This document shows positions 35,903 through 49,838 of a DNA stretch of 64,000 bases, one piece after another. The notes below the pieces were generated by a model, which was not told the DNA's origin, ran no database searches, and worked only from the letters and a program-made list of their open reading frames with translations. A program made the position numbers and the translations under genes. Positions within the stretch are counted from its first letter, which is position 1, and each line of letters opens with the position of its first letter. Source of the DNA: Bryobacterales bacterium (GTDB lineage: Bacteria; Acidobacteriota; Terriglobia; Bryobacterales; Bryobacteraceae); the NCBI GenBank assembly GCA_025463005.1, contig JAOAPR010000027.1:1-64000 (forward strand), in the 5' to 3' direction.

Positions 35903-35935
35903 GGGTGCGTCGAAGGTAACTTTTTCGGCGCACCC
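35903..35935 (+). terminator. Probable terminator after the OmpA-like gene
   Basis: GGGTGCGTCGAA and TTCGGCGCACCC form a 12-bp stem with one G-U pair, 27 bp after the stop. Only a short T-run follows, so efficiency is uncertain, but it separates the OmpA gene from the sigma-54-like promoter downstream. Confidence 0.5.
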
Positions 35936-35967: not shown

Positions 35968-36007
35968 ACCCTGTTAAATCAATAGCTTAGCTCTGGTGTT
36001 CGAGATG
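35968..36007 (+). promoter_or_regulatory. Sigma-54-like promoter with adjacent IHF-like element
   Basis: CTGGTGTTCGAGATGCG carries GG and GC elements separated by ten bases, matching the -24/-12 spacing of RpoN promoters (consensus TGGCAC-N5-TTGC; C at the fourth position is replaced by T). Immediately upstream, AATCAATAGCTTA fits the IHF consensus WATCAANNNNTTR exactly. The same combination recurs at 49478. Predicted start about 36019 leaves a 160-nt leader before the kinase gene. Confidence 0.55.
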
Positions 36008-36181
36008 CGAGTGGCCTTTAGCTACAGCATCAAGATGAGCATCGCCCTCGCCCACCGAGAGTGCAGCCGGTTTACGTCCTTGGGGCGAGCACGGCGAAGA
36101 ACTATCCTCAGTACTGGTACTAATCCCCCATCCGCTGACGTCAAAAAAGACGTTAACCTATCCCCGCAGTAAGGAGAAAAA

Positions 36182-44337
<8,156 letters not shown>

Positions 44338-44341
<4 letters not shown>

Positions 44342-45903
44342 GGACAATGCAAGAGGGTACAGCTCTGAGCATCTCGGCCAAGGCGTTGGTAGAAAAAAAC
44401 GCAACCGTCAAGCTCCTTCTCGTCGACGACGATCAGGATAACTTGCTGGCTTTACAGGCAATTCTCGAACCGCTCCAGCAGGAGCTCATGCTCGCCCAGA
44501 ACGGAACCGACGCCCTGCGCCTGTGCCTGGAGCACGATTTCGCCGCCATTCTGCTGGATGTCCGTATGCCGGTGATGGACGGATTCGAGACCGCCGAGAT
44601 GATCCGCGCGCGCAAGAAATCACTGCAAACACCCATCTTGTTTCTTACCGCCTATCGCAGTGATGAGCAGCTCTTCCGGGGATACAATCTGGGCGCGGTC
44701 GACTTCCTGTTTAAGCCGATCGTTCCGGAAATCCTTCAGAGCAAAGTTAACGTTTTCGTCGAGCTGCGGCGGACCGAGCAGCTTCTCCGGCGCAAAGCGG
44801 AGCAGCTAGCCAGAGCGGAACAGCGCTTTCGCGCGGTCCTCGAAGCTGCGCCGGACGCGATGATGATCACCAATCAGGCGGGCATAATCGAGTTGGCGAA
44901 CTCGCGCGCGGACACACTCTTCGGGCGCTCGCGCGAGGCGCTGATCGGCCGCGACATCCATTCGCTTCTTCCCGCCTGGGAATGTCCCGATGAGGATTTG
45001 TTGCTCCCTGGCCTGCCGCAGCCGACGCCGGAGCAAAGGCTAACTGCTCATCGCGACGATGGCTCGGTTTTTCCGGCTGAGATCACCCGCAATTCGTTCC
45101 ACACGCCCGACGGGTTGCTGATCACAACCGCGATCCGCGACGCTACCGATCAGGTGGATGCGGAAACCAAAATACAAAAGACCAATCTGGAGCTCGAAAA
45201 GAGAGTGGCCGAACGCACCGCCGCGCTGCGTTACTCCAATGAGGCGCTTCGGCAGTTCGCCTGGGCCGCCAGTCATGACCTTCAAGAACCGATTCGGACC
45301 GTCGTCACGTATTCGCAATGGCTTGCCAAGATCATGAACGGCAATCTCGGAGTAAGGGAATCGAAGATGCTGGCGACGATTGAACAGCATGCTTCGCGCC
45401 TCAACCAACTGCTGGCGGCACTGCGGCAGTATATCCAGGTCAGCGATTCGGGCCAGCACAGCAGGGTTTCGGTGGACTGCAACGCCATCGTTAAAGCGGC
45501 GGCGTGGAATTTGCAGGGCATGATTGAGGAAAACGGCGCTTCCGTTGAGTGCGGCACCTTGCCCACCATCGCTTCGCTTGAACTCCCGCTGGTGCAGCTC
45601 TTCCAGAATTTGATTAGTAATGCCATTAAGTACCGGTCGGAGGTCCCCCCGGTCATTCGGATTTCGGCGGAGGCAGGCGAGAACTGCTGGGTCTTTTCCG
45701 TTCAGGATAACGGGATTGGCATCGATCCCAAGTATTTTGACTACATCTTTGGTGTTTTCCGGCGTCTGCACGGAGCGCAGAAGTCCGGTACTGGAATTGG
45801 TCTGGCCATTTGCCGCGCTGCGGTTGAGCGACTTGGGGGCAGAATTTGGGTTGAATCCACTCCCGGATCGGGTTCTACGTTTTTTGTATCTCTGCCGCTG
45901 TGA
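44338..45903 (+). CDS. REC-PAS-histidine kinase
   Basis: The 521-aa soluble protein has an N-terminal receiver ([33 protein letters not shown]; about 24-135), a PAS domain (about 160-275), a short coiled coil, and a kinase core with His313 in [14 protein letters not shown]-box [10 protein letters not shown] and G boxes [14 protein letters not shown]. The DLQEP form is shared with phytochrome-type kinases. Its ATG overlaps the giant kinase stop (ATGA), indicating translational coupling and a common message. The receiver could accept phosphate from the giant kinase and modulate this kinase's output. Confidence 0.92.
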
Positions 45904-46343
45904 TGAAGGTTGTTAAAATGCGAATCTTTCTTGCCGAGGACAATCTCGGAGACGTTTTTCTGATTGAAGAGGCGCTCCGGCGCCAATCGCTGGTTTGCGA
46001 TATTGACCACTATGCCACCGCCGAAGACGCGATTCACGCGGCTGAGCTGTGCGGCAATGCGGGCGCCCCGATTCCGGATCTGATGATGCTGGATTATAAT
46101 CTGCCTCGCGGAAATGGTAGCGATATTCTCGCGGCCGCGGGTCTCAATCCTAAGCTGGCTGCTGTGCCAAAAGTGATCGTCACTTCGTTTTTGCAGGCAG
46201 AAGAGCTGGCTCAGGCTCTGGAGCTGGGAGCTAACTGCTTGATCACCAAGCCGGTGGATTTTGAGTCGTTCATGCACGATGTCGGCGCCAAAATCGCGGA
46301 AATGCTTCAGGCGGGCGGAAGATCGCAAGCGAGAACTTCCTAA
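45903..46343 (+). CDS. Single-domain response regulator, Rcp1-like
   Basis: I start at ATG 45903, overlapping the preceding stop, in place of the GTG at 45900. The 146-aa protein is one receiver: acidic IFLAEDNLGDVFLIE, phospho-acceptor MLDYNLPRGNG, VTSFLQAEE, TKPVDFESF. Such output-less receivers (Rcp1 type, often paired with DLQEP kinases) shuttle phosphate between proteins. It lies between two DLQEP kinases and may be a phosphate sink or shuttle. Confidence 0.92.
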   Translation: MKVVKMRIFLAEDNLGDVFLIEEALRRQSLVCDIDHYATAEDAIHAAELCGNAGAPIPDLMMLDYNLPRGNGSDILAAAGLNPKLAAVPKVIVTSFLQAEELAQALELGANCLITKPVDFESFMHDVGAKIAEMLQAGGRSQARTS

Positions 46344-46371
46344 TAAAGTGACCAGGCGGGGAAGCAAGAAC

Positions 46372-47880
46372 GTGGCATACCGTCGCACAAGACCGGTATA
46401 CGTGTGGATCGCCGCGATCCCAATCCTGCTGCTAGCCGCGTCATTCTGGCGGCACACCCACTATCGCGAGCTCATTCGCGGAGTGGACCACGCCAGAGAG
46501 GTGCAGGTCGCGATCCAGAATCTGCTGGTTTCGCTGAACGAAGCCGAGACCGGGCGGCGTGGATACATTCTGACGGGAGATCCCGATTACCTGGCGGCTG
46601 TCGAAGGAACCGCCGCCAGAAGCCCCGCAATTCTCGATCGCCTGTCAGATCTGACCCGGGATAATCCCGTGCAGCAGGGCAACGTCCGCGCGCTTGAGAG
46701 CCTGCTGAATGAACGGCTGCAGCTTCTCGAACAAACTTCACAACTCGGCCGGGCCGGCCAGGATGCCGCGGTAAGAGAACTGGAGAGGCAAAAGGGGCTG
46801 GCTGGATCAACCCAACTCAGCAAAGTGATGTCCGCAATGATGGCTGAGGAGACCCGGCTGCTGGACCAGCGCAAGCAGGCTACGGAGGCGGCGGAGTTTG
46901 AAGCGGACGCCTTTTTCATCGCCGGCTGTTTCGCGACCATCCTGCTGCTCCTGTGGGCGTATCGGATCCTGCGCCAATACGCTGATGAGCGCGATCGTGC
47001 GGAATCCGAGGTCCGCCACGCGAATGAGAGGCTTCAGGAGAAGATCGGACAACTGGACCGTCTCAACCAAGAGCTCGAAAATAGGGTGAAAGAGAGGACC
47101 GCAGACCTGGAGCGCTCCAATCTGGATCTCCAACAGTTCGCCTTCATCGCCAGCCACGACTTACAGGAACCGCTCCGCATGGTGGTGAGCTACCTGGGGC
47201 TCTTGGGAAAAGCCTTTAACGGCAAGCTCGATGGCGACACGGAAAAGTACCTGGCGTACGCCGTGGACGGGGCCACGCGAATGCAGGCCCTGATCCGGGA
47301 TCTTCTGGCGTATGCGCAGGCCGGCGCCCAAACGCCCGTGCTGATCCGAACCCGGCTGAGTGAGGTGGTTAGCCAGGCGCGCTATGGCCTGCTGGAAAGC
47401 GTTCGGGAAACGGGTGCCGAGATCAGCGCCGGGGCGCTGCCCGAAGTGGAAGTCGATCCGTTGAAGATGAGCCTGGTTTTCCAGAACCTGTTCTCCAACG
47501 CCATCAAGTTTCGCCAGCGCGACCGGAAACCCTTCATTCAGATCGAAGCCCGGCAGGAAGCCGGCGAATGGCTTGTGTCGGTGCATGACCGGGGAATCGG
47601 ATTTGATCCAAAGTACGCCGAAAAGATCTTTGCCGCCTTCCAGCGGCTGCATGGAAAGGGTGAGTACCCCGGCACAGGTATCGGTCTTGCTATCTGTAAG
47701 CGCATCATCGAAGCCCACGGAGGTCGTATCTGGGCGGAGGGTCATCCCGGAGCAGGCGCCACATTCTACTTCACGTTGCCTGCCATGGCCGATCCCCTTC
47801 CCGCCGCGGATGATTCCGCCACGGCTAGCGTTTCGAGCGGTGCGCCAGCGGCCGAAAACCGCTCGCGTGAGCCGCGATAG
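46372..47880 (+). CDS. CHASE3-domain membrane histidine kinase
   Basis: I prefer the GTG at 46372, with GGCGGGGAAG nearby and followed by the first membrane segment (YVWIAAIPILLLAASFW), over the track's 46261, which would overlap the previous gene deeply. The 502-aa protein has two membrane segments (about 9-24 and 178-196), a periplasmic CHASE3 helical domain between them (AETGRRGYILTGDPDYLAAV), a coiled coil, and a kinase core with His262 ([13 protein letters not shown]), NLFSNAIKFR and [10 protein letters not shown]. Probably senses an extracytoplasmic signal. Confidence 0.9.
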   Translation: MAYRRTRPVYVWIAAIPILLLAASFWRHTHYRELIRGVDHAREVQVAIQNLLVSLNEAETGRRGYILTGDPDYLAAVEGTAARSPAILDRLSDLTRDNPVQQGNVRALESLLNERLQLLEQTSQLGRAGQDAAVRELERQKGLAGSTQLSKVMSAMMAEETRLLDQRKQATEAAEFEADAFFIAGCFATILLLLWAYRILRQYADERDRAESEVRHANERLQEKIGQLDRLNQELENRVKERTADLERSNLDLQQFAFIASHDLQEPLRMVVSYLGLLGKAFNGKLDGDTEKYLAYAVDGATRMQALIRDLLAYAQAGAQTPVLIRTRLSEVVSQARYGLLESVRETGAEISAGALPEVEVDPLKMSLVFQNLFSNAIKFRQRDRKPFIQIEARQEAGEWLVSVHDRGIGFDPKYAEKIFAAFQRLHGKGEYPGTGIGLAICKRIIEAHGGRIWAEGHPGAGATFYFTLPAMADPLPAADDSATASVSSGAPAAENRSREPR

Positions 47881-48028: not shown

Positions 48029-49405
48029 ATGGCGGAATTAGAGCCGATTCGAATCCTGGTCGTGGATGACGACGCCGAGCAGCGCGATGCCGTCGCGCGC
48101 ATGGTTGTCGCAAAAGGGTACATCCCCGAAACCGCCCAGCACGGCGAAGAAGCGCTCGAGAAGCTCGGCGGCGCATCCTTCAATGCCATCGTAACGGACC
48201 TGTTCATGCCGCTACTCGACGGCGCGCAGCTTCTGAGAACGCTGCTGGAGCGCGGGGACCTCACGCCAGCGATCGTTCTGACCGGTTTCGGCGATATCAG
48301 CCACGCCGTCTCCATTGTCCACGACTTGCGCGCGTTCTGGTTCCTGGAGAAACCCGTGCAGACTGAGGTTCTTCACGCTCTGCTGGAGCGCGCCGTACGT
48401 CAAGAAAGTCTGGCCAGGGAAGCCGCCATGCTGCAGCGCCAGGCAGGCTATCGCGGAACCCTGGTGGACATGGTAGGGGCATCGAAGACCATGCAGCAGG
48501 TCTTCGCCCTGATCCAGCGAGTGGCTCCAAGCGCAGCCTCCGTGCTGATCAGCGGGGAAAGCGGAACGGGCAAAGAGCTGGCTGCGCGAGCCATCCACAA
48601 GCTCAGCCCACGCGCCGGGGGACCCTTCGTAGCGATCAACTGCGCGGCTCTGCCCGAGCACCTGATCGAAAGCGAGCTGTTCGGCCATGAACGGGGAGCG
48701 TTTACCGGCGCCATGGCCCGCCGGATCGGCTGTTTCGAGCAGGCTAACCGGGGCACGCTGTTCCTGGACGAAATCACGGAAATGCCCATCGGGACACAGG
48801 CCAAGCTGCTTCGGGTGCTTCAGGACGGCAAAATCCGCCGTTTGGGGGGAACTTCGGAGACGTACGTCGACGTGCGCATCGTTGCCGCGACCAACCGGCC
48901 TCCCGAGACAGCGATCCAGGAAAAGCGGCTACGGGAGGATTTGTACTACCGGCTCAATGTGTTCCAGATTGCTCTGCCGGCCCTGCGGCATCGCAAGGAG
49001 GACCTGCCCATCCTGGTGGATGCATTGATTAATGAGCTGAATGCCAAGCACGATTGTAAGGTCGATGGCCTCGAACCAGAGGCGTTGGCCAGACTGATGT
49101 GCCATGCCTGGCCCGGCAACGTCCGGGAGCTTCGGAATGTCCTGGAGCGCGGGGTGATCGTGGCTCGCGAAGGCGCTCTGCGGCTCCAGCAACTTCCGCC
49201 GACCCTGGGTATTCCGCAGATGAACCTTCCCGCCGCGGACACCCAGACAGCCCCCGTATTTAAGTTTCGTGAGGGCGCGACTCTGGATGAAGTGGAACGG
49301 GCCTACATCCAGTTCACGCTCAGCCTGATCGGCAACAACAAACGCCGCGCCGCTAAGATTCTCGGAATCGGCGAGCGGACGCTGCACAGCCGCGTCGCGG
49401 AGTGA
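48029..49405 (+). CDS. NtrC-family sigma-54-dependent response regulator
   Basis: The ATG at 48029 is preferred to the track's 47573, which lies inside the kinase gene. The 458-aa protein has a receiver (ILVVDDDAEQRDAV, VTDLFMPLLDG, LTGFGD, EKPVQ), an AAA+ domain with GESGTGKELAARA, the sigma-54-contacting loop ERGAFTGAMA, Walker B GTLFLDEI and arginine-finger region REDLYYRLNVFQI, and a C-terminal Fis-type helix-turn-helix (NKRRAAKILGIGERTLHSRV). It is the transcriptional output of the locus and probably activates the sigma-54-like promoters at 35968 and 49478. Confidence 0.95.
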   Translation: MAELEPIRILVVDDDAEQRDAVARMVVAKGYIPETAQHGEEALEKLGGASFNAIVTDLFMPLLDGAQLLRTLLERGDLTPAIVLTGFGDISHAVSIVHDLRAFWFLEKPVQTEVLHALLERAVRQESLAREAAMLQRQAGYRGTLVDMVGASKTMQQVFALIQRVAPSAASVLISGESGTGKELAARAIHKLSPRAGGPFVAINCAALPEHLIESELFGHERGAFTGAMARRIGCFEQANRGTLFLDEITEMPIGTQAKLLRVLQDGKIRRLGGTSETYVDVRIVAATNRPPETAIQEKRLREDLYYRLNVFQIALPALRHRKEDLPILVDALINELNAKHDCKVDGLEPEALARLMCHAWPGNVRELRNVLERGVIVAREGALRLQQLPPTLGIPQMNLPAADTQTAPVFKFREGATLDEVERAYIQFTLSLIGNNKRRAAKILGIGERTLHSRVAE

Positions 49406-49477
49406 ACGCAGGTTCTCATTTTTAGCAGGTTTTGTGCATACGTTGTAAGTTCTTCCAAGTCGCGGCCGCGACGCAGG

Positions 49478-49518
49478 TCCTGTTAAATCAATAACTTACG
49501 TTTGGCGCTCGCCGTGCT
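49478..49518 (+). promoter_or_regulatory. Second sigma-54-like promoter with the same upstream element
   Basis: TTTGGCGCTCGCCGTGCT has TGGC and GTGC spaced as -24/-12 elements (GG-N10-GC), a better match than the copy at 35968. Directly upstream AAATCAATAACTTA repeats that copy's element at the identical spacing. Predicted transcription starts near 49529, into a 310-nt leader ahead of the nucleotidyltransferase gene. Confidence 0.6.
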
Positions 49519-49528
49519 CTCACGAGAG

Positions 49529-49838
49529 CCTACGAGAGACCATGGCGCTCAATCGCTAGCGGCGAAAAATTGTGGATTTCAATAAGAAGAGCCGCGGATT
49601 CGCGTCATCCCTGGCGAGTTCAAATAATTGGAGGATCGCCAGGGGCCGGGCCGGAGGACGCTCGGCGCAGTCTCTCGGCGGGCCTGTAGCCAGTGGGGAC
49701 CCCGAGCTGACTTTAAACGCTCGGGGCCAAATTTCGACTTTCGGAGGCACCCTGTCGGAGGGGGCTTAGGCCAGGTGGAGATCGCAAATTGCGATCCCAT
49801 CCGGCCTTCGAGATGGCGGTGAAGAGCGGGAGAAGACG
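49529..49838 (+). ncRNA. Structured leader or possible sigma-54-driven RNA
   Basis: The 310 bp between the second sigma-54-like promoter and the next gene hold no convincing open frame but several strong hairpins: CCCTGGCGA/TCGCCAGGG (49609-49644) with a loop containing GGAGGA, CCCCGAGC/GCTCGGGG (49700-49726), and an 18-bp stem (49769-49806) around GATCGCAA-A-TTGCGATC. At least six GGA motifs occur, several in loops, reminiscent of CsrA/RsmA-type sites. No terminator with a T-run was seen, so a long 5' leader is more likely than an independent RNA. Confidence 0.45.

Follow-up and report, generated by a model that had tools for sequence, protein, structure and literature searches.

A putative IHF–sigma-54 promoter before a sugar nucleotidyltransferase gene, and its counterpart before a giant sensor-kinase operon, in a Bryobacterales bacterium

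The stretch of Bryobacterales DNA analysed here (64,000 nt, hereafter the window) carries the 14-mer AAATCAATA(A/G)CTTA at two places, 35976–35989 and 49485–49498. The first copy precedes an operon of sensor kinases that ends in the gene of an NtrC-type activator, and the second lies between that gene and the gene of a sugar-1-phosphate nucleotidyltransferase (Table 1). What is this element, and does its recurrence tie the two loci together? Judged from its sequence, 49485–49518 is very probably a real promoter of the nucleotidyltransferase gene, in which a site for IHF, or for an IHF-like HU protein, stands against the -24 box of a sigma-54 promoter. A puzzling locus-specific motif is thereby replaced by a known part that can be tested.

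Table 1. Features of the two loci, with positions in the window
Feature	Position	Strand	Remarks
IHF-type core AATCAATAGCTTA, first copy	35977..35989	+	kept in G019 and G020
Sigma-54 -24/-12 element TGGTGTTCGAGATGCG, first copy	35994..36009	+	
HAMP-repeat hybrid histidine kinase, 2719 aa	36182..44341	+	ORF and translation; first gene behind the first copy
Receiver-PAS kinase, single receiver, CHASE3 kinase	44338..47880	+	rest of the run up to the activator gene
NtrC-type activator gene	48029..49405	+	receiver, sigma-54 AAA+, Fis-type HTH
IHF-type core AATCAATAACTTA (matches WATCAANNNNTTR)	49486..49498	+	about -43 to -31 relative to the predicted start
Sigma-54 -24/-12 element TGGCGCTCGCCGTGCT	49503..49518	+	GG 49504–49505, GC 49516–49517
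Predicted 5' leader, ~310 nt	49529..49838	+	start site predicted from the -12 box
Sugar-1-phosphate nucleotidyltransferase gene, 326 aa	49839..50819	+	NTP_transferase PF00483

Two copies of a composite element

The copy before the nucleotidyltransferase gene reads AAATCAATAACTTA and the copy before the kinase operon reads AAATCAATAGCTTA. Both are followed by exactly 4 nt and then by TGG-N9-TGC, so the "identical register" noted in the sequence-only reading is right. With up to two mismatches allowed, the 14-mer matches the window at these two places only (0.22 matches expected). These are also its only exact copies in the 6.36-Mb genome, where looser matches are near chance, which rules out a genome-wide dispersed repeat. 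Taken alone, the -24/-12 half is not enriched: the window has 27 weak matches to it, where 29.6 are expected by chance. The composite AATCAANNNNTTRN{4,5}TGGYN8TGC, also written AATCAANNNNTTR-N4,5-TGGY-N8-TGC, occurs there twice and in 100 shuffles not at all.

The GG and GC pairs of the second copy stand 10 nt apart, as in TGGC-N7-TTGC. Both -12 boxes are imperfect, with GTGC in the second copy and ATGC in the first instead of TTGC. The -12 GC pair of the second copy places the predicted start site at about 49529. The leader that would result has no match in Rfam, and a structured leader RNA was dropped as a candidate. The product of the downstream gene resembles mannose-1-phosphate guanylyltransferase, its match to TIGR01479 being below the cut-off.

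The genome has three strict composites (spacing 4–5), the two of the window and a further one on contig C184. The latter (L253, G000:C184, 3558–4616, minus strand) lies directly before a GT8-like glycosyltransferase gene, which has a weak match to glycosyltransferase family 8 and no match in Pfam.

Identity and conservation of the 14-mer

The core of the 14-mer matches WATCAANNNNTTR, the textbook IHF consensus; the element is almost certainly an IHF site and no activator-specific box. The consensus has been given as WATCARxxxxTTR (PMC3897727). WATCAANNNNTTR is present in both window copies and in AATCAACAAGTTG, the counterpart of the second copy in G019, whose nucleotidyltransferase is the closest among the relatives (70% identical). 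An IHF site and some other 14-mer can be told apart by the letters that vary freely in such an ortholog. The G019 site, AATCAACAAGTTG-actt-TGGTCCTTTTTGTGC (with TGGTCCTTTTTGTGCT as its -24/-12 element), occupies the same place as in the window, between the activator stop and the nucleotidyltransferase start, and its changes are confined to the NNNN block and the R position of the IHF core. All 14 anchor letters (AATCAA, TT, TGG and TGC) are kept, compared to 43% identity in the intergenic background (chance probability ~8e-6). Because the anchors are kept and the variable letters of the consensus have changed, the element is better read as an IHF site than as a 14-mer specific to this locus.

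The gene order in G019 is also that of the window: kinase end, receiver-PAS kinase, receiver, CHASE3 kinase, activator, site and nucleotidyltransferase. The activator orthologs are 86–87% identical in G019 and in a second relative, G020, and 60–64% identical in further congeners. In G020, the activator gene is followed neither by a nucleotidyltransferase gene nor by the composite. In the more distant congeners G007 and G009, where the N-termini of the kinases are 87–88% identical, the composite is absent upstream of the kinase. The sequence-only reading described both copies as sigma-54-type promoters with an attached upstream element, and this is supported by their conservation in relatives. 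Its expectation that the element recurs upstream of orthologous genes was borne out in part, at both sites in G019 and at the kinase site in G020, and failed at the kinases of G007 and G009.

The weak points of the IHF–sigma-54 reading are the imperfect -12 boxes and the sequence to the left of the 49485 core. Ahead of the core, the kinase copy is fairly A/T-rich, whereas the 49485 copy is G/C-rich from -27 to -14. The 14–27 nt upstream of its core read GTCGCGGCCGCGAC, and an A/T-rich left arm, which would favour binding by IHF, is missing. As a separate observation, GTCGCGGCCGCGAC (49459–49472) is a perfect 14-bp palindrome located between a quasi-palindrome (described below) and the IHF core, and it is not kept in G019.

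Distribution, spacing and known relatives of the design

The pattern AATCAATNNCTTA-N3,5-TGG was found 15 times among the matches listed for 61 relatives, with no control matches. When the spacer was allowed to vary from 0 to 30 in 200 genomes of the family, matches were present in 129 genomes versus 8 reversed-control matches (control columns counted by hand). Among the 147 matches listed, the spacing is 4 in 26 and 5 in 53 (79 at 4–5) and 14–16 in 33, with little elsewhere. The two peaks are one helical turn apart, which indicates that the spacing depends on the face of the helix.

Beyond the family, a one-shot scan of GTDB genomes for the 20-letter composite (spacing 4–5) returned 98 places, where about one would be expected by our own estimate from equal base frequencies. 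These belong mostly to Pseudomonadota (Pseudomonas, Azospirillum, Rhizobium, Vibrio, Kluyvera) and also to Acidobacteriota, Nitrospirota and Desulfobacterota. In most cases an ORF begins no more than 450 nt downstream; only a few of the places fall within an ORF themselves. With free spacing, 32 mostly proteobacterial GTDB genomes show clusters at 5–7 and 14–18, in a tally that excludes the matches by which these genomes were chosen. The flgB-flgC-fliE-fliF operon of G020, a classic sigma-54 target, is also preceded by the composite (L258, G020:C81; genes named from their translations). A further composite precedes a flgB-like start in G014 (L020, G014:C23), so flagellar genes use the same design. 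Since the composite occurs across phyla and before unrelated genes, it represents a general architecture and no speciality of this locus. An IHF core 4–5 or 14–16 bp from TGGC is a pattern that recovers sigma-54 promoters nearly free of background and is useful in Acidobacteriota.

From what the sequences show, namely a conserved composite spaced by helical phase and genes for RpoN and IHF/HU-like proteins (see below), a probable mechanism can be proposed. IHF would bind AATCAATAACTTA and bend the DNA just upstream of the polymerase; the bend would allow an NtrC-type activator bound at an enhancer to contact the sigma-54 polymerase, help to seat the polymerase, or both. The copy at 35976–36009 would play the same role for the kinase-to-activator operon, and the activator encoded between the two promoters may drive both. 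The phase-dependent spacing fits the need for one face of the helix. A broader proposal, which we put forward tentatively and rate somewhat short of an even chance, is that an abutting IHF core at ~4–6, 14–16 and perhaps 24–27 bp from the -24 box represents a promoter grammar shared across phyla, a "sigma-54-IHF composite promoter", in which IHF acts as a polymerase clamp on a fixed face rather than as a freely placed helper of looping. In the clade of the window, this grammar might mark a small regulon tying the giant sensor-kinase operon to surface-sugar genes. With helical-phase spacing seen over hundreds of genomes, the face-of-helix requirement for IHF at sigma-54 promoters is directly testable by comparison. 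In the freely accessible literature that was searched, no study of IHF with sigma-54 in Acidobacteriota came up, nor any paper comparing genomes for a quantised distance of IHF sites from sigma-54 promoters, which speaks only weakly for novelty.

IHF at sigma-54 promoters has long been known, and the composite is one more case of a widespread, mostly known promoter design. In the Pu promoter of Pseudomonas putida, the IHF site spans about -52 to -79 and thus lies further upstream than the abutting site of the window. Pu and todX-type promoters are IHF-dependent, as cited in PMC3897727, and going by that citation IHF bends the DNA between the enhancer and the sigma-54 promoter there and may help to recruit the polymerase, as envisaged here. 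A closer parallel is provided by orp1/orp2 of Desulfovibrio vulgaris (PMC3897727), where a sigma-54 promoter, an NtrC-type activator encoded at the locus and an IHF consensus between the enhancer and the -24 box (reported at -42/-43) are likewise combined. IHF is bound at -43 of orp2, and promoter activity falls 10–12-fold without IHF or its sites. Unlike the window promoter, which is known from sequence alone, orp1/orp2 have been characterized by mutation, gel shift and reporter assays and have known enhancer palindromes. The cis-element of PEP-CTERM loci with PrsR/PrsK (Haft 2006, PMC1569441) also combines an NtrC-type response regulator, a sigma-54 promoter and exopolysaccharide-related genes. 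Its motif 1, a 17-nt site ending in TTTACA, sits 32–92 nt from the sigma-54 motif, whereas the window element is an IHF site directly against the -24 box. The window activator scores 357 bits against the PrsR profile TIGR02915, below the cut-off of 502.6. Neither the score nor the spacing fits a PrsR/PEP-CTERM regulon, and this reading was dropped.

Regulon, binding protein and upstream sequences

Do the two promoters belong to one regulon, in which the activator drives both its own kinase operon (autoregulation) and the nucleotidyltransferase gene? This is compatible with the IHF reading and additionally needs an activator-specific enhancer; we regard it as close to an even chance, slightly on the doubtful side. 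The two sites are the only strict composites in the G019 genome (assembly 89% complete) and two of the three in the genome of the window, so that their clustering is not trivial. The parallel absence of the nucleotidyltransferase gene and of the composite behind the activator in G020 is in favour as well. An activator relative and a nucleotidyltransferase gene remain adjacent in G004 and G011, though with their order changed; in G011 the kinase is nearby as well. This adjacency hints at a functional pair that is conserved irrespective of the promoter. On the opposite side, the composite is also found before the flagellar genes of G020, and the kinases of G007 and G009 lack it. By a first-look count, the genome contains more than 100 candidate matches for sigma-54 activators, so others could act. 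Comparison of the two upstream regions revealed no sequence in common beyond shuffle level except coding sequence: the best common 14-mer agrees at 12 of 14 positions (shuffle mean 10.9, maximum 13), and both of its members lie inside coding sequence.

The sequence-only reading derived co-regulation of the kinase locus and the nucleotidyltransferase gene from the shared element. As the composite is a general part, its sharing alone is no proof of a shared activator, and no clearly shared enhancer was found in these upstream regions. What stands of the claim is the scarcity of strict composites and the genomic context; the link is fairly likely and rests on three facts beyond the shared element, namely the arrangements in G019, in G020 and in G004/G011. 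The swapped order is seen at L254 (G004:C19) and L255 (G011:C2), where the nucleotidyltransferase and NtrC-type activator genes are neighbours.

A possible activator site is the quasi-palindrome TTGTAAGTTCTTCCAA (TTGNAAGNNCTTNCAA) at 49443–49458. Its centre lies at about -78, close to the range expected of an enhancer for an AAA+ activator (about -80 to -200), and it does not occur at the kinase promoter. G020 keeps a near copy of it, CATACGTTGTAAATTCTTCC, behind the activator gene, although the promoter and the nucleotidyltransferase gene are gone there. Upstream of the kinase promoter, an inverted repeat, GGGTGCGTCG...CGGCGCACCC, spans 35903–35935. The repeat persists in G019 and G020, where a different gene lies upstream: its two arms have changed in step (GGGTACGCCG/CGGCGTACCC), and T-runs come after it. 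Because of the T-rich runs and the matched arm changes, it was dropped as an enhancer candidate and is probably a terminator.

Which protein would occupy the IHF site? The genome encodes one RpoN (PF04552, E 4e-57, G000:C243) and, in PF00216, four good proteins and one fragment; paralogs lie at G000:C188, C113 and C3. Three of its IHF/HU proteins contain a (D/E)-x-R-G-F-G arm, and the best of these arms, KIEIRGFGSF, compares with RIEIRGFGSF of E. coli IHF-beta, including the specificity motif IEIRGFGSF. None of the HU/IHF proteins of the genome reaches an NCBIfam cut-off for IHF alpha or beta, the best scoring 111.6 versus 115 bits (IHF-beta). Together with the weak A/T enrichment on the left side of the sites in the bacterial family of the window, this might suggest that the canonical heterodimer is replaced by a paralogous IHF/HU protein or a homodimer specific to these Acidobacteria. 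We consider this less likely than not, given that the consensus equals that of E. coli IHF letter for letter and that the same composite is used by bacteria with canonical IHF.

The sequence-only reading had treated the 14-mer as a locus-specific mark of the activator, implying that the local activator itself binds there. Two exact copies bracketing the activator gene would agree with this. The 14-mer, at about -44 to -31, is too close for an ordinary enhancer and has no dyad symmetry; in G019 only its IHF letters are kept, and across phyla it precedes unrelated genes with helical-phase spacing. The 14-mer carries the IHF consensus instead, and its recognition by the activator is very improbable. 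A chance resemblance with no promoter at 49485–49518, to which the imperfect -12 boxes and the chance-level frequency of -24/-12 elements in the window might point, is hardly credible for a composite absent from shuffles and kept in G019 and G020.

The kinase encoded behind the first copy contains many HAMP-type repeats that are nearly identical to one another, its C-terminus carries two tandem receiver arrays, and the number of repeats seems to vary among relatives (2404 aa in G011).
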